From assembly GCA_028287305.1 (NCBI GenBank), contig JAQBPX010000027.1, positions 62,001 through 126,000 of the forward strand: a DNA stretch of 64,000 nt. The letters are read 5' to 3'. Under the pieces are notes generated by a model. It was not told the DNA's origin. It did not search any database and worked only from the letters and a program-made list of their open reading frames with translations. Below, piece after piece: positions 538 to 59,489 of the stretch. Position 1 is the stretch's first letter, and each line of letters begins with the position of its first letter. The stretch is from Gemmatimonadota bacterium. Lineage in GTDB: Bacteria > Gemmatimonadota > Gemmatimonadetes > Gemmatimonadales > Gemmatimonadaceae. A program made the translations under genes and the position numbers.

Positions 538-2493
538 GTGCAGGTCGATGCCCGGCACCGCTTCGACAACTTCATCGTGGGCTCGGCCAACCGCCTGGCG
601 GTCGCCGCGGCGCGCGCGGTCGCGGAGTCGCCCGGCAGCACGTACAACCCGCTCTTCGTCTACAGCAGCTCGGGGCTCGGCAAGACGCACCTGATGGGCG
701 CGATCGGCAACCTGGTGCAGCAGCGCTCGCGCGAGGCCGTGATCGAGTACGTGACGCTCGACGACTTCGTGGAGCAGCTGCACGCGGCCGTGGCGGCGGG
801 GGAGAGCGAGCGCTTCAAGCAGCGCTACCAGCGCATCGACCTGTTGATGGTGGACGACGTCCAGTTCCTCACGGGCCGGCGCGAGACGCAGTCCGAGATG
901 CTGCGCCTGCTCAACGCCATGCAGGGCTCGGGCAACCAGATCGTGATGGCGAGCGACCGGCCGCCGTCCGACATTTCGGACGTGGACGAGCGCCTGATCA
1001 CGCGGCTGTCGGGCGGGCTGATCGTGGACATCGCGTCGCCGGACTTCGAGACGCGCGTGGCCATCCTGCGCGCCAAGAGCGACGAGCGCGGCATCCGCTT
1101 CCGCCCCGGCGTGATCGAGGAGCTCGGGCGCCTGGAGTTCACCAACGTCCGCGAGCTGCAGGGCGCCCTCAACCGCCTCATCGCGTTCCAGACGCTGGGC
1201 GGCGACCAGCTGCAGGCGGAAGACGTGCACACCGTGCTCGGCGACCTTCCCGAGGCGCAGCGTGCCTCGGCGGGAGGAGCGAAGCCCGCGGCGCTGGCTG
1301 GCGCGCCGGGCGGCCCGCTCGACTTCCAGAGCTTCCTCTCCGACATCGCCACCGCGGTCACCACGCACGTGGAGAGCTGGAAGCTGCGCGTCGCGGAAGC
1401 GATCGCGTACTGGAACGGCGAGGGCTACCGCACGGGCGCGCTCGACCGGCTGCTCGAGGAGACCACGCAGCCGCCACACTACGAGGCGGTGCTGCGCGGG
1501 TACGCGGCATTCGTCGAGCGATTGAAGGCGCTCGAGAGCCAGGCCACCGGCATCGACTCGGCGCTCGGCGCGAACGAGGCGTTCCGCGACCCCGAGCGGC
1601 TGCAGGAGGCGGAGGCGGTGGTGCAGCGCGCGTTGAGCGGCGCCACCCCGCCACCGGGCCCGTCGAGTGCATTCACGCGCGCCGGCTACGAAGTGGGACA
1701 CAGCAACCAGCTGGCGGTGCGAGCGGCCGACGCCGTGGTGGAGACTCCCGGGCAGAAGTACAACCCGCTGTTCGTGCACGGCCCGAGCGGCGTGGGCAAG
1801 ACGCACCTGCTCCATGCGCTGGCGAATGAGCTCGTGCGCGCGCTCGGCGGCAACGTGGTGGTGGCCTGCGTGGGCGCGCAGCAGTTCATGGACGAATTGA
1901 TCGCGGCCATCCAGGAAGACACCGTGGATCGCTGGCGCCAGCGCTATCGCCGCATCGAGGGGCTGGTGATCGACGACATCCAGTTCGTCGCGAGCAAGGA
2001 GCGCACGCAGGACGAGCTCTTTCACGTGTTCAACGCCCTGCACTCGGCGGGCAAGCAGCTGGTGTTCGCGAGCGACCGTCCCCCCCGCGACCTCGACGGG
2101 CTCGAGGACCGCCTGCGCTCGCGCTTCGAGGGCGGGCTGGTGGTCGAGATGCAGTCCCCGGACCGCGCGCTCCGCGAGCGGCTCTACGCGCGCTACCTGG
2201 CGAGCGTGGCGTCCGAGGATCCGGAGGCGATCGCCGCGTTCCTCGCCGAGCGCCCGGTGTCGAGCGTGCGCGAGATCATGGGCACCGTGAATCGGGTGGT
2301 CGCGTCGGCCGACACGAGCGGCGTGCCGCTGTCGCTCGCGTTCGCGCGCGCGGAGCTCGAGCCGAGCGGGCGCAGCACGCACCAGGACGCACCGGTGATG
2401 AAGGCCGAGGTGGATGCCTTCTTCGTGGACGACGAGAAGATCGTGTGGGAGTGGGAAGAGATGGGCTCGCGCCTGATCGAGGAGTTCAAGTAG
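538..2493 (+). CDS. Twin DnaA-like AAA+ ATPase lacking DNA-binding domain
   Basis: A 651-aa protein with two DnaA/Hda-type AAA+ modules. Module 1 covers about residues 1-235: YNPLFVY, then Walker A-like SSSGLGKTH (K49), Walker B VDDVQF (D106/D107), sensor 1 ASDRPP, box VII LITRLSGGL, sensor 2 NVRELQGAL. A helical linker of about 140 residues follows. Module 2 covers about 379-620: GPSGVGKTH (K421), IDDIQF (D479/D480), ASDRPP, LRSRFEGGL, SVREIMGTVNR. The tail is acidic and Trp/Glu-rich, ending LIEEFK. DnaA domain IV (the helix-turn-helix that binds DnaA boxes) is absent, so this is not the replication initiator. The GTG start follows the GTPase stop by 2 nt and the next gene starts 1 nt after this stop. 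No named family with this architecture is known to me; a GTPase-linked scaffold or switch is an inference. Confidence 0.88.
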   Translation: MQVDARHRFDNFIVGSANRLAVAAARAVAESPGSTYNPLFVYSSSGLGKTHLMGAIGNLVQQRSREAVIEYVTLDDFVEQLHAAVAAGESERFKQRYQRIDLLMVDDVQFLTGRRETQSEMLRLLNAMQGSGNQIVMASDRPPSDISDVDERLITRLSGGLIVDIASPDFETRVAILRAKSDERGIRFRPGVIEELGRLEFTNVRELQGALNRLIAFQTLGGDQLQAEDVHTVLGDLPEAQRASAGGAKPAALAGAPGGPLDFQSFLSDIATAVTTHVESWKLRVAEAIAYWNGEGYRTGALDRLLEETTQPPHYEAVLRGYAAFVERLKALESQATGIDSALGANEAFRDPERLQEAEAVVQRALSGATPPPGPSSAFTRAGYEVGHSNQLAVRAADAVVETPGQKYNPLFVHGPSGVGKTHLLHALANELVRALGGNVVVACVGAQQFMDELIAAIQEDTVDRWRQRYRRIEGLVIDDIQFVASKERTQDELFHVFNALHSAGKQLVFASDRPPRDLDGLEDRLRSRFEGGLVVEMQSPDRALRERLYARYLASVASEDPEAIAAFLAERPVSSVREIMGTVNRVVASADTSGVPLSLAFARAELEPSGRSTHQDAPVMKAEVDAFFVDDEKIVWEWEEMGSRLIEEFK

Positions 2494-25779: not shown

Positions 25780-26516
25780 AGGACGAGGCGCAGCTGGAGC
25801 TGCAGGCAGTGAAGGCGCAGGGCAGGGCGCCGCTCCTGTCTCGCAAGCTCACGCTCGCGCTCTGGGGGATCGGCGCGCTGATGCTGCTCGCGTCTCCGCT
25901 CTGGGGGCCCAGGGTGCTGGCGCACAGCCGATTCTTTCGCGTGCGGCGCGTGGTCATCGAGGGCACGCGCTACCTGCAGCCCAGTGACATTCTCCAGCGG
26001 CTGAACGTCGATACCATGGCGAGTGTCTGGGATCCCGCCGGGCCGCTGGAGCGTCGCGTCGCGGAGCACCCGCAGGTGCAGGAGGTGCACGTGCGGCGCC
26101 GCCTGCCCAGCACGCTGGTGGTCGAGATCACGGAGCACCTGCCCGTGGCCCTCGTTCCGGCAGTCGGCGGGTTCAGGGCGTACGACGATCGTGGAGTCGC
26201 GCTGCCCATCGATCCGGCCACCACCCCGGTGGACGCGCCGATCCTCCTCCAGCGCGACGACGTGATTCTTCGGCTCCTCGGGCGTCTCCGCATTGGGGCC
26301 CCGAAGCTGTACGACCGCATCAGCGCCGTGCGTCGCGTGGAAGGAAACGAGCTGCTCTTCACGCTCGCCACCCTTCCGGTGCGCGCAATGGCCGACGTGA
26401 CCGTGGACCGCCTCACCGAGCTGTACCCCGTGGAGCAGGACCTCGCGCAGCGGCACCTGGCCGTGGCGGAGCTGGATCTGAGATTCAGGGACCAAGTGAT
26501 CGCCCGACTCCCATGA
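25776..26516 (+). CDS. ftsQ: Cell-division protein FtsQ (POTRA)
   Basis: A 246-aa bitopic protein: cytoplasmic start, transmembrane helix at about residues 27-45 (TLALWGIGALMLLASPLWG), then a POTRA domain (FFRVRRVVIEGTRYLQPSDILQ, VQEVHVRRRLPSTLVVEITEH) and the FtsQ beta domain. FtsQ recruits FtsL/FtsB to the divisome. The GTG start overlaps the murC stop (GTGA) and its stop overlaps ftsA (ATGA). Confidence 0.9.
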   Translation: MKDEAQLELQAVKAQGRAPLLSRKLTLALWGIGALMLLASPLWGPRVLAHSRFFRVRRVVIEGTRYLQPSDILQRLNVDTMASVWDPAGPLERRVAEHPQVQEVHVRRRLPSTLVVEITEHLPVALVPAVGGFRAYDDRGVALPIDPATTPVDAPILLQRDDVILRLLGRLRIGAPKLYDRISAVRRVEGNELLFTLATLPVRAMADVTVDRLTELYPVEQDLAQRHLAVAELDLRFRDQVIARLP

Positions 26517-27769
26517 ACACTGAACGCCTCGTCGCCGGACTCGACATCGGCTCGGCCAAGACGACCGTGCTCATCGCCGAAGTGGTCGGCGACCTCCCGA
26601 AGCACCCCACCATCAAGGTGCTGGGCGTGGGGCAGGCCCGCACCACCGGCATGCGCCGCGGCGTGGTGTCGGACATCGAGGAGACCACGCGCTCCATCCG
26701 CAAGGCGCTGCAGGATGCCGAGCGCATGGCCGGGGTGCAGGTGCAGGAGGTGTACGCCGGCATCGCGGGCGAGCACGTGCAGGCGATGATCAGCAAGGGG
26801 ATCGTGGCCGTGAGCGGCGACGAGATCGCGAAGGGCGACGTGGACCGCGCGAACGAAGTGGCGCGCGCCCAGTCCATCCCGCAGGATCGCGAGCTGCTGC
26901 ACGCCATTCCGCAGGAGTACACCGTCGACAAGGACACCGGCATCCGCGACCCCATCGGGATGAGCGGCATGCGCCTGGAGACGGAGATGTACCTGGTGAC
27001 CATCGGCAGCTCGCCGGCGCTCAACCTGCGCAAGAGCGTGGAGCGCGCGGGCTACAAGGTGCGCGAGCTGGTGCTCGAGCCCCTGGCGAGCGCGCTGGCC
27101 GTGCTCACCGAGGACGAAAAGGAGCTGGGCGTGGCGCTCGTGGAAATGGGCGCCGGCACCACCGACATCGCCGTGTTCCACGAGGGCAAGATCAGGCACC
27201 TCGGCACGATCGCGTTCGGCGGCAACAACGTGACCAGCGACATCGTGCACGGGCTTGGCGTCACGCAGGCGGACGCCGAGCGGATCAAGGAGCGCTACGG
27301 CTGCGCCTACGAGCCGCTGGTGGACCCGAGCGACGTGATCCAGCTGCCCAGCACCGTGGCGCAGGGCGATCGCCAGATTCCGCGGGAGCTGCTGGCGCAC
27401 ATCATCCACCAGCGGATGGATGAGATCTTCGACCTGGTGCAGCGCGACGTGAGCGCCGCGGGCTACGCGGGCAGGTTGAGCGCCGGGGTGGTGCTCACCG
27501 GCGGCGCGGCCGCGATGCAGGGTGCGGGCGAGCTCGCGAGCGACGTGTTCGGCACGGGCGTGCGCGTGGGATCCCCCGCGGAGAACATCGGCGGGCTCTC
27601 CGACTCGGTGGAGGCCCCGCGGTTTGCCACGGTGGTGGGACTGGCGCAGTACGCCGCGCATCGCGTGGCGCTCGGCGCCAGCTCGAGCGCCAAGCGGCCG
27701 AAGGTCGCAGGGCCCGGGCTCGAGGGTATCACGCAGAAAGTGAAATTCTGGCTGCAGGACTTCTTCTGA
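26513..27769 (+). CDS. ftsA: Cell-division actin homologue FtsA
   Basis: A 418-aa actin-fold ATPase that tethers FtsZ filaments to the membrane. Signatures: LVAGLDIGSAKTTVLIAEV (phosphate 1), the 1C domain around YAGIAGEHVQAMISKG, LVEMGAGTTDIAVF (phosphate 2) and SAGVVLTGGAAAMQG (adenosine). The C-terminus KVKFWLQDFF is an amphipathic membrane-targeting helix. It overlaps ftsQ by 4 nt. Unusually, ftsZ does not follow directly; a glycosyltransferase gene lies between. Confidence 0.96.
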   Translation: MNTERLVAGLDIGSAKTTVLIAEVVGDLPKHPTIKVLGVGQARTTGMRRGVVSDIEETTRSIRKALQDAERMAGVQVQEVYAGIAGEHVQAMISKGIVAVSGDEIAKGDVDRANEVARAQSIPQDRELLHAIPQEYTVDKDTGIRDPIGMSGMRLETEMYLVTIGSSPALNLRKSVERAGYKVRELVLEPLASALAVLTEDEKELGVALVEMGAGTTDIAVFHEGKIRHLGTIAFGGNNVTSDIVHGLGVTQADAERIKERYGCAYEPLVDPSDVIQLPSTVAQGDRQIPRELLAHIIHQRMDEIFDLVQRDVSAAGYAGRLSAGVVLTGGAAAMQGAGELASDVFGTGVRVGSPAENIGGLSDSVEAPRFATVVGLAQYAAHRVALGASSSAKRPKVAGPGLEGITQKVKFWLQDFF

Positions 27770-27786: not shown

Positions 27787-27816
27787 GGAAGGAGCAGCTG
27801 TCTCATGGCTGGATGA
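27787..27816 (+). promoter_or_regulatory. Shine-Dalgarno and possible 3-codon leader (MAG-stop) before the GT2 gene
   Basis: GGAAGGAG (27787-27794) is 10 nt before an ATG at 27805, whose frame is Met-Ala-Gly-stop. That TGA overlaps the glycosyltransferase ATG at 27813 as ATGA. The Shine-Dalgarno sequence is 18 nt from 27813, too far for direct use, so reinitiation from the tiny leader is possible. Confidence 0.4.
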
Positions 27817-28682
27817 CTGGCGTCATTCCGCCCGCGCCGGACACGATCACCGTGATGCTGCCGGTGAAGCACTATCACGACCGCTTCCTCCTCGAGGCCG
27901 TGGAGTCGGTGTTCGCGCAGTCGTCGGATCGCTGGCTGCTGCTGGTGATCGTCCATCCGGAGGCGGAGGCGCCGCTCCGGGCGCTCCTCGCCGGCCCGCT
28001 GCTCGACCCGCGCGTGAGCTTCGTGCGCGGCACCGGGGAGGGGCTTGGTGCAGCCTTCAACACGGGCATGCGCGCGGCGCGCACGGAGTTCGTCTCGATC
28101 CTGCTCGGCGACGACCTCTGGGAGCCGCGCGCGATCGCGGCGGTGCAGGAGGCGATGGCCGAGCATCCGGAGGTGGACTTCTTTCACAGCGCGCGGCGAA
28201 TCGTGAGCGACGACCTGACGCCCATCAGCTCCGTATACGGCGCGCAGGAGTCGTTCGAGCCCGGCGACTTCGTGTTCAGGTCGCCGGTCAAGCACCTGCT
28301 CTGCTGGCGGCGGAGCCTCGCGCTGTCATTCGGCGGCATGGACGAATCGCTCGCGAACGTCGGCGTGGACGACCATGACTTCCCCTGGCTCATGGCCGAC
28401 CATGGCGCGCGCTTCCAGGCGATCCAGGAGTGCCTGTACGTCTATCGTGATCACAGGGAGGGCTACCGGCTCACGACCCACATCCCGCGGAGCGTGCACC
28501 TGCGCGAGCAGCGCCGGGTGCTCGAGAAGCATGGAGTGGCCGAGCCGCTGATCCGGAAGCGGCTGCGCGACGCGAAGCGCGGCTACCTTCGCGAATGCCT
28601 GTACCGGAACGAGCTGCATGCGCGGCTGTGGCAGTGGCTTGGGATTGGGCCGTCGGCGCCGTGGAGGCAGCAGTACCGATGA
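27813..28682 (+). CDS. Family 2-like glycosyltransferase inserted between ftsA and ftsZ
   Basis: A 289-aa cytoplasmic protein with a GT-A fold start: DTITVMLPVKHYHDRFLLEAVESVFAQ, then GLGAAFNTGMRAARTEFVSILLGDDLWEP (GDD as the metal/nucleotide motif) and FGGMDESLANVGVDDHDFPW as the acceptor-side acidic region. The C-terminal third is basic (REQRRVLEKHGVAEPLIRKRLRDAKRGYLR), suggesting membrane-surface contact. Substrate unknown. Its placement inside the division cluster suggests a link to envelope glycan at septation or a neutral insertion. Base composition matches the neighbours. Confidence 0.8.
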   Translation: MTGVIPPAPDTITVMLPVKHYHDRFLLEAVESVFAQSSDRWLLLVIVHPEAEAPLRALLAGPLLDPRVSFVRGTGEGLGAAFNTGMRAARTEFVSILLGDDLWEPRAIAAVQEAMAEHPEVDFFHSARRIVSDDLTPISSVYGAQESFEPGDFVFRSPVKHLLCWRRSLALSFGGMDESLANVGVDDHDFPWLMADHGARFQAIQECLYVYRDHREGYRLTTHIPRSVHLREQRRVLEKHGVAEPLIRKRLRDAKRGYLRECLYRNELHARLWQWLGIGPSAPWRQQYR

Positions 28683-28789
28683 CGCGGGATGGGAAAGTTT
28701 TGAACATCATAAATCTGATTACGCAAGAGAAATTTGTGCACAACTCACATGTACTCTTTTTCACGATGGGTCGTCATTTCGAGGACTAG
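28679..28789 (+). other. Possible 36-aa frame in AT-rich block before ftsZ (doubtful)
   Basis: A frame beginning MTRDGKVLNIINL overlaps the glycosyltransferase stop as ATGA and ends at TAG (28787-28789). Its codons do not show the G/C third-position bias of every other gene here. By my count, bases 28691-28790 are 39 percent G+C. I regard the block as more likely regulatory than coding. Confidence 0.2.
28734..28743. promoter_or_regulatory. DnaA-box-like palindrome upstream of ftsZ
   Basis: TTGTGCACAA is a perfect 10-bp palindrome. Read on either strand it matches the DnaA box TTWTNCACA at 8 of 9 positions (G for A/T at position 3). It lies in the AT-rich block 140 nt before the ftsZ start. 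The site is visible; DnaA binding is inference. Confidence 0.35.
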
Positions 28790-28808
28790 TCGGAAGGTCT
28801 CGAAGCGT

Positions 28809-28814
28809 TATATT
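28809..28814 (+). promoter_or_regulatory. -10 box for ftsZ
   Basis: TATATT, 68 nt before the ftsZ ATG. No good -35 is seen at the normal distance. It gives ftsZ its own transcript with a leader, unlike the leaderless genes elsewhere in the window. Confidence 0.5.
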
Positions 28815-28882
28815 CTCCGAGCCTTTCCCTGCCTGTCGCCCGCCATGATTTCGTCGTTCCCACCCGTGGAGTTCCGACCGCA

Positions 28883-30069
<1,187 letters not shown>

Positions 30070-30073
<4 letters not shown>

Positions 30074-57460: not shown

Positions 57461-58497
57461 GCCAGGCGCCGCTCAGCTATGCCGACGCCGGCGTCGACCT
57501 GCACGAGGCCGACGACGCGAAGGGCCGGCTGAAGGCGCTGGTCGAGAGCACCATGACGGCGGGCGCCCGCGGCGCATTCGGCGGCTTCGGCGGCATGTTC
57601 CGCGTTCCAGCCGGACTCCGGGCTCCCCTCCTCGTGTCGAGCGCCGATGGCGTGGGCACCAAGGTCAAGGTCGCCATCGAGGCGGGTCGCCACGGCACGG
57701 TGGGGCACGACCTCGTGAACCACTGCGTGAACGACATCCTGGTGCAGGGCGCCACGCCGCTCTTCTTCCTCGACTACGTGGCGTTCGGCAAGCTGGACGC
57801 GGCCGTGGTCGAGCAGGTCGTGTCCGGCGTCGCGGCCGGCTGCCGCGAGAACGGGTGCGCCCTGGTGGGCGGCGAGACCGCGGAGATGCCGAGCGTCTAC
57901 ACGCCCCCGGATTACGACCTGGCGGGGTTCATCGTCGGCATAGTGGAAGAAGATGCAGTGCTGGGTGCGGACCGGGTGGTCGAGGGCGACGTGCTCGTCG
58001 CCCTCGCGAGCAGCGGCCTCCATACCAACGGCTACTCGCTCGCGCGCCGGATCGTGAGCGAGCGCATGGGCCTTGGCCCTGGCGACGCGTTTCCGGGGGA
58101 GCAGGAGAGTACGGCCAGTGTGATGTTGCGCACACACCGTTCCTACCTTTCGGCGGTACGATCAATGCTGTCGAGGATTCACGCGATGGCGCACATTACC
58201 GGGGGTGGGCTTCCCGGCAACCTGAATCGCGTGCTGCCTCCGGCCATGGATGCGATGGTCGATGCATCCACGTGGCAGGTGCCCAACCTGTTCGTGCAGT
58301 TGCAGCGCGCGGGTGGAGTCGCTCGCGATGAGATGTTCCGCACGTTCAACATGGGGGCGGGCATGATCGTGATCTGCGCCGAGGCGGATGCCGACGCGGT
58401 GATCGCGAGTGCGGCTGCCTCCGCCGTTCCCGCATGGCGCGCCGGCACGATCGTGCGCGGCAGCGGAGTCGTTCACATCAGCCAGGAGTCAGCATGA
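57457..58497 (+). CDS. purM: Phosphoribosylformylglycinamidine cyclo-ligase PurM
   Basis: A 346-aa AIR synthetase closing the imidazole ring in purine synthesis. Motifs: LSYADAGVDLHEADDAK, FGGFGGMFRVP, LVSSADGVGTKVKVAIEAG, HDLVNHCVNDILVQGATPLFFLDY, CALVGGETAEMPSVY and the C-terminal HITGGGLPGNLNRVLP and FNMGAGMIVI. The GTG start overlaps the PfkB kinase stop (GTGA), and its stop overlaps the start of an outer-membrane-type protein gene. Confidence 0.97.
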   Translation: MSQAPLSYADAGVDLHEADDAKGRLKALVESTMTAGARGAFGGFGGMFRVPAGLRAPLLVSSADGVGTKVKVAIEAGRHGTVGHDLVNHCVNDILVQGATPLFFLDYVAFGKLDAAVVEQVVSGVAAGCRENGCALVGGETAEMPSVYTPPDYDLAGFIVGIVEEDAVLGADRVVEGDVLVALASSGLHTNGYSLARRIVSERMGLGPGDAFPGEQESTASVMLRTHRSYLSAVRSMLSRIHAMAHITGGGLPGNLNRVLPPAMDAMVDASTWQVPNLFVQLQRAGGVARDEMFRTFNMGAGMIVICAEADADAVIASAAASAVPAWRAGTIVRGSGVVHISQESA

Positions 58498-59489
58498 AGG
58501 TATCTCGTCTGTTCGTCGCGTCGGCACTCGTCGTCGTCGCGTCCTCTGCCGCGCACGCCCAGTCGTCGCAGTGCCCGTCCGGGGCTCCCCTGAGCAATGC
58601 CCAGGTTTCCCAGGACGCGTGCCAGCAGGCAGTGGACCTCTATCAGTACATGTCGGCGCAGCTCGGCACGGCGATCGCCGGTGGCAACGCCACGCTCGGC
58701 CAGGGCGGCACCATGGGCGGGCTCGGGCACTTCTCGATCGGCGTGCGAGTGAACGCGGTCGCGGGCACGCTGCCGCAGGTGGACAAGTTCACGCAGAGCC
58801 CGAACGGCGCGCAGAAGCAGACCCTGCCCACCGAGGACAACAAGCCGGTCCCGATGCCGACCGTGGACGCCGCCTTCGGCATCTTCAAGGGCATCCCGCT
58901 CGGCCTCACGAACGTCGGCGGCATCGACCTGCTCGTGAACGCCGCGTATGCCCAGGACATCTCCGGCAACAACGTCGCGCTCACGGTGAACGGCTCCAAG
59001 TACAAGTTCGGCTTCGGCGCGCGCCTCGGCCTGCTCCAGGAGTCACTCCTCGTGCCGGGCGTGTCCGTCACCTACCTCAAGCGCGACCTGCCCGAGATCA
59101 ACATCATCGGCACGTCGGGCAATGACGAGCTCACGGTCCGGAACCTGAACATCAAGACCACCGCCTGGCGCCTGGTCGCGAGCAAGAGCCTCGTGATCTT
59201 CGGCCTCGCGGTCGGCGTCGGCAAGGACAAGTACGACCAGTCGGCGCTCGTGCACGCGAAGTTCTCACAGGGCCTGCAGACCGCCACGTCGAGCGACGTG
59301 TCCCTCACGCAGGTCCTCGATCGCACGAACGTGTTCGCCGACCTCTCGCTCAACCTCCCGATCTTCAAGCTCGTCGGCGAGATCGGCCAGGTGAGCGGTG
59401 GAAGCGTGCCCACGTACAACAGTTTCGCGAACAAGGCCGCGGATGCCTCGCGCGTCTACGGTTCGGTGGGCCTCCGCCTTTCCTGGTAA
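58494..59489 (+). CDS. Predicted outer-membrane protein, unknown function
   Basis: A 331-aa secreted protein. The signal peptide MKVSRLFVASALVVVASSAA ends near AHAQ. The mature part has a Cys pair (QCPSG, DACQQAV), then amphipathic strands alternating with Gly/Asn turns (GHFSIGVRVNAVAG, YKFGFGARLGLLQES, VFADLSLNLPIFKLVGEIG) and a terminal strand SVGLRLSW ending in an aromatic residue, as in barrel proteins. No family recognised. It sits, unexpectedly, between purM and ribD with a 4-nt overlap and a 4-nt gap. Confidence 0.7.
   Translation: MKVSRLFVASALVVVASSAAHAQSSQCPSGAPLSNAQVSQDACQQAVDLYQYMSAQLGTAIAGGNATLGQGGTMGGLGHFSIGVRVNAVAGTLPQVDKFTQSPNGAQKQTLPTEDNKPVPMPTVDAAFGIFKGIPLGLTNVGGIDLLVNAAYAQDISGNNVALTVNGSKYKFGFGARLGLLQESLLVPGVSVTYLKRDLPEINIIGTSGNDELTVRNLNIKTTAWRLVASKSLVIFGLAVGVGKDKYDQSALVHAKFSQGLQTATSSDVSLTQVLDRTNVFADLSLNLPIFKLVGEIGQVSGGSVPTYNSFANKAADASRVYGSVGLRLSW

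Follow-up and report, generated by a model that had tools for sequence, protein, structure and literature searches.

A candidate DnaA-responsive ftsZ promoter with a fixed-spacing partner motif in Gemmatimonadaceae

Does the initiation of replication act directly on transcription of the main division gene? The question is long-standing; such a link has support in Caulobacter and has been rejected for E. coli. In Caulobacter crescentus DnaA activates ftsZ, whose promoter carries two DnaA boxes (PMC3193534; review PMC8203912), and in Bacillus subtilis DnaA binds the promoter of ftsL (PMC8203912). The three DnaA boxes upstream of ftsZ in Escherichia coli are described as irrelevant to ftsZ transcription (PMC8203912; PMC10532879). 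Our literature search returned no paper combining 'Gemmatimonadota' and 'DnaA box', and the main text of a study of division in this phylum, for which genetic tools are lacking, does not contain the word 'DnaA' (PMC11271474).

Here we consider a 64 kb stretch of DNA (hereafter the window; G000:C32:62001-126000) from a Gemmatimonadota genome of 4,371,569 bases. On its + strand ftsA, a family 2 glycosyltransferase gene, an AT-rich block and ftsZ follow one another in that order (Table 1). An earlier note had counted 39 G/C in positions 28691-28790, far below the surroundings, and the recount agrees: 39/100, against 69.7% for the whole window. Sliding-window composition, proposed in the same note and run over the 64 kb, places this block within the most AT-rich stretch: only 9 of 63,901 100-base windows are as low in G/C, with starts all between 28688 and 28696.

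Table 1. Coordinates of the ftsZ upstream block, its putative elements and the neighbouring genes in the window
Feature	Position	Strand	Evidence
Putative ftsZ upstream control region (glycosyltransferase-ftsZ gap)	28683..28882	+	100/200 G/C; lowest-G/C 100-base windows of the 64 kb; counterparts in relatives
Motif A, TCATAAATCTG (family consensus TCAnAAAnnTG)	28707..28717	+	family motif at fixed spacing
Palindrome TTGTGCACAA, a variant DnaA box reading TTGTGCACA on both strands	28734..28743	.	family's box position, 28 bp after motif A; TTGTGCACA also in presumed oriC
Presumed ftsZ promoter, -10 element TATATT	28809..28814	+	TATA(T/C)T in 75/89 long-gap loci
ftsZ, putatively controlled gene	28883..30073	+	Pfam Tubulin and FtsZ_C
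Glycosyltransferase family 2 gene between ftsA and ftsZ, a neighbour outside the element	27813..28682	+	Pfam Glycos_transf_2
ftsA, neighbour	26513..27769	+	Pfam FtsA and SHS2_FTSA

Phylogenetic footprinting upstream of ftsZ, which the note had also suggested, drew on two sources. Of 59 relatives 58 yielded an ftsZ locus, and 49 of these 58 loci were used, along with 80 named loci, taken as the top 80 FtsZ matches of the named collection (78 of the 80 titles read Gemmatimonadetes, Gemmatimonadaceae, Gemmatimonas or Roseisolibacter; the other two carry no group name). The ftsZ start is contained in 128 loci, 112 of which have a unique upstream sequence. Among these 112, a short ftsA-ftsZ gap of 20-36 bp is found in 22, which belong to families f2 and f3 of the same order wherever family codes are known. 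Setting these aside together with L131, labelled 'nogap' in the FtsZ tree only because its record ends just before ftsZ, leaves a long-gap set of 89 loci from the family Gemmatimonadaceae.

Across this set the footprint returned a family-wide control region with a DnaA box, motif A and a -10 element. The earlier note had weighed two readings of the block, of which one, a short foreign segment, would make the block AT-rich because it was acquired and fits the lowest G/C of the window and the adjoining glycosyltransferase gene, for which no counterpart at ftsZ was found among the other 111 unique loci (within the flanks available). That gene is another insertion separating ftsA from ftsZ. The foreign segment is rejected, and we grant it next to no probability, because motif A, the box position and the -10 of the block have counterparts across the family. 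The other reading, a control region tying ftsZ to replication, gains from the footprint, with DnaA boxes in 73/89 loci and the window's palindrome at the orthologous place, at the family's spacing to motif A; the palindrome singled out in the note is found in the window alone (1/89 loci), and an asymmetric DnaA box is conserved instead.

This DnaA box, TTNTCCACA, lies upstream of ftsZ as TGTGGANAA in 66 of the long-gap loci and in the opposite orientation in 12, five loci having both. In 200 dinucleotide shuffles the number of loci with a box averaged 0.49 with a maximum of 3, against the real 73, and of 300 permuted 9-mers, the box itself being one of them, the next best matched 8 loci. Once near-copies are removed 82 loci remain, 62 of them with a forward box. 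The canonical box is absent from 16 of the 89 loci: a site with one mismatch exists somewhere in the region in seven of these, among them the window, and in the other nine not even such a site was found. Six loci (L013, L074, L078, L082, L083 and L084) carry an opposite-orientation box TTATCCACA about 54 bp before TATATT. Separately, L014, L068, L080 and L088 carry an additional DnaA box, TTTTCCACA, located 18 bp past the first base of TATACT; it overlaps the expected start of transcription, so that a protein bound there would repress.

Downstream of the box, TATA(T/C)T is present in the long-gap loci as counted in Table 1 and TATATT in 70/89; box start and TATA(T/C)T start are 76-98 bp apart in 48 of 52 measured loci. 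The TATATT -10 box that the earlier note had pointed out is there in the window and matches the sigma-70 -10 hexamer; it is one of two TATATT on the + strand of the window, the - strand having none. No match to a -35 hexamer at 16-18 bp spacing was found in 28600-28900, nor was a terminator or a full sigma-70 promoter in the same interval. In relatives there is a weak TG 22-21 bases before the -10 (49 and 53 of 72). By eye a CGTC-type element seemed to lie between box and -10, but it was not prominent in -10-anchored columns and was dropped.

A motif search with one site per sequence in the 45 bp before the 62 forward boxes yielded [AG]TCAnAAAnnTG[AC], hereafter motif A. The 14-column motif starts 28-30 bp before the box in 55 of the 62 non-redundant forward-box loci and scores 794, against 320-348 in ten shuffled sets that preserve base composition only and were given 10 starts each instead of the 30 of the real set. 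The spacing is rigid: TCANWWWNNTG has 31 matches in these 45-bp stretches, and every one of them begins 27 or 28 bp ahead of the box. The window's motif A is the sole match to TCANAAANCTG in the 64 kb, both strands searched, and with its flanks (ATCATAAATCTGAT) it forms an imperfect inverted repeat. A strict composite pattern of motif and box matched 5 times in 59 genomes, always just upstream of ftsZ, while its reversed control matched once; most family genomes are missed by it because the pattern is strict. We know of no description of motif A, the motif itself having been left out of the literature queries. IHF, judged by its consensus, was considered as a possible binder.

The exclusive location of the strict composite at ftsZ, together with a motif that to our knowledge is no known DnaA element, would also suit some other regulator reading TGTGGANAA and motif A as one composite site. 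Such a reading is improbable in our view. The free base of the box takes all four letters in the non-redundant set (T 25, A 20, C 11, G 6), and in DnaA boxes this base may be any of the four; canonical boxes also lie close to the start of dnaA, a usual place for DnaA autoregulation, in 24 of 30 loci. Autoregulation of this kind is described for E. coli (PMC8203912).

The box goes with ftsZ rather than with ftsA. Of 13 loci whose ftsA is at least 450 bp away, 11 keep a box no more than 340 bp from ftsZ, the exceptions being the window, with its variant box, and L048; in one single-contig relative (G021, 4,636,964 bases) the distance to the end of ftsA is 10.8 kb, with the box at -271. DnaA might nevertheless bind here without setting ftsZ transcription, the site serving to store DnaA or to organise DNA, for which E. 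coli offers a precedent in the accounts cited (PMC8203912, PMC10532879). The fixed place of the box relative to the -10 and to motif A, and its staying with ftsZ where ftsA is distant, speak against this, and we consider it unlikely.

Among the families sampled, the arrangement was found in one only. In the sister family f2 no box was found within 3 kb upstream of ftsZ (0/10 regions); elsewhere in the f2 division cluster, in regions of about 20 kb, single sites turn up in 2 of 10, one 3.5 kb and the other 6 kb ahead of ftsZ, and these we take as chance. In f1 regions, mostly from genomes already used, a box lies within 340 bp in 7/10 and is absent in 3. Another 20 f1 loci include 12 near-copies of used loci, and 7 of the other 8, some of which may be close kin of earlier loci, have the box. 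Neither the box nor TATA(T/C)T was found in 20 hand-chosen upstream regions, several with short gaps, from families f4-f7 of the class; one of these 20 has a loose motif A match.

The window itself carries a variant. The palindrome TTGTGCACAA occurs at a single place in the whole 4,371,569-base genome. It had been noted as perfect and one mismatch from a DnaA box on both strands, which is true with respect to TTGTCCACA (TTNTCCACA); it is two mismatches from the E. coli box TTATCCACA. Taken alone its frequency is not significant, since 0.48 matches with at most one mismatch are expected in 64 kb and a reversed control 10-mer is as rare in the genome. It is the position of the palindrome, not its frequency, that exceeds chance. 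Motif A starts at 28707, TGTGCACAA starts 28 bp later and TATATT starts 74 bp after that, just below the 76-117 bp range into which 51 of the 52 measured loci fall; the 28-bp spacing from motif A thus places the palindrome at the family's box position, where it differs from TGTGGACAA by one base. The 64-kb window contains no canonical TTNTCCACA at all, TTGTGCACA being one mismatch away, and TGTGCACAA is found in no other of the 89 long-gap loci. A DnaA box in the ftsZ promoter region, as in Caulobacter, is a feature of the family, represented in the window by a variant at the orthologous place. Being non-canonical, the window's own box may be weak.

No genome-wide enrichment of TTNTCCACA was seen in the window's own genome (12 sites, reversed control 12), and sites against control in six relatives are 45/40, 45/35, 13/9, 42/34, 16/18 and 49/25. 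The argument therefore rests on position and not on number. Likewise, TTNTGCACA gives 15 hits at 14 places in the genome, since the palindrome counts twice, against 17 hits for its reversed control, and is not enriched over the whole genome.

The 245-bp dnaA-dnaN gap, the likely oriC of the window's genome, contains a DnaA-trio-like CTACTACGACTACTA plus TTGTGCACA and TTCTGCACA. TTNTGCACA occurs twice in this gap, a number reached by none of 2000 gap shuffles, and TTGTGCACA is produced by 5 of the 2000. Across 18 family dnaA-dnaN gaps there are 5 occurrences of TTNTGCACA, spread over 4 genomes (100 shuffles: mean 0.28, max 3), 2 of TTNTCCACA (mean 0.25, max 2) and 13 of NTNTCCACA (mean 0.85, max 3). 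These sites make DnaA binding of the window's variant plausible, without proving it. DnaA-trio-like CTACTAC/TACTACT/CTACGAC repeats are present in 16 of the 18 gaps, a raw count without shuffle control, and the gap looks oriC-like in the family (L133 8232-8474, L149-L178).

These data bear on the possibility that DnaA controls ftsZ in the family but that the window's site has decayed or contains a sequencing error, the palindrome differing from TTGTGGACAA by a single base, so that only the promoter and motif A would work here. The variant is seen in 1 of 89 loci, the box has been lost at other loci too, and in the FtsZ tree the window falls, with weak support, among 20 rows of which 18 have a canonical forward box and one a reverse box. 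Against this, motif A, the 28-bp spacing and the -10 are intact in the window, TTGTGCACA recurs in the presumed oriC and TTNTGCACA exceeds its shuffle mean in the family gaps. We regard decay or error as a rather unlikely account of the site.

Two further loci with possible DnaA connections were noticed. L147 1985-2080 (G000:C37, near 58484-58580) holds three DnaA-box-like sites, TGTGGATAA, TGTGGAAAA and the near-match TGTGGAAAG, clustered in some 100 bp at the 3' end of a TonB-like gene, and could be a DnaA-storing locus. The window also encodes, at 538-2493 (+), a 651-aa protein in which Pfam Bac_DnaA matches two stretches, as tandem DnaA-type AAA+ domains, and in which no match to the DnaA DNA-binding domain was found; a DUF4388/TPR protein follows it, and tandem DnaA-type AAA+ matches share the ftsZ contig in many f1, f2 and f3 relatives.

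The sequence elements, their conservation, their fixed geometry and their absence before ftsZ in the other sampled families are directly observed; from them we infer DnaA binding, protein binding at motif A and a transcriptional response. The block is likely a dedicated ftsZ promoter in which a DnaA site and its partner motif A adjust ftsZ transcription to replication initiation. RNA polymerase would use the TATATT -10 at 28809, with the putative DnaA site, here the palindromic variant TTGTGCACAA, about 74 bp upstream; 28 bp further upstream, motif A TCATAAATCTG would probably be bound by a second, perhaps dimeric protein. DnaA, probably together with this partner, would then adjust transcription in Gemmatimonadaceae to the state of replication initiation. 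Activation, as in Caulobacter, is favoured because the site lies well upstream of a -10 lacking a good -35. More tentatively, we speculate on a two-protein operator for ftsZ, with DnaA and a perhaps dimeric regulator (TCAnAAAnnTGA) 27-28 bp apart jointly licensing transcription after initiation, which could have arisen when Gemmatimonadaceae uncoupled ftsZ from the ftsA operon and might be used at no other gene.

These features suggest that the family ties division-ring production to the start of DNA replication. That a family of a different phylum keeps a DnaA site at a fixed place ahead of ftsZ argues for selection of such a link there, and exact bases, plus a partner motif, can now be named for study of the replication-division link.

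As in E. coli, there are DnaA boxes upstream of ftsZ, but the E. coli boxes, as described, are three and lie inside coding genes, whereas Gemmatimonadaceae have one, in the non-coding gap before ftsZ's own -10. B. subtilis likewise has DnaA at the promoter of a division gene; its target is another gene, ftsL, and the portions of the review bearing on it mention no motif A. Closest is Caulobacter, where DnaA boxes also sit in the ftsZ promoter and DnaA is reported to bind in vitro and to activate. Caulobacter is an Alphaproteobacterium with two boxes and, in the passages of the cited sources that concern them, no mention of a fixed-spacing partner motif, whereas Gemmatimonadaceae usually have one box, a putative DnaA site, with a rigid motif A. 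The locus is best read as a Caulobacter-like, DnaA-responsive ftsZ promoter that occurs in a different phylum and has a partner motif.
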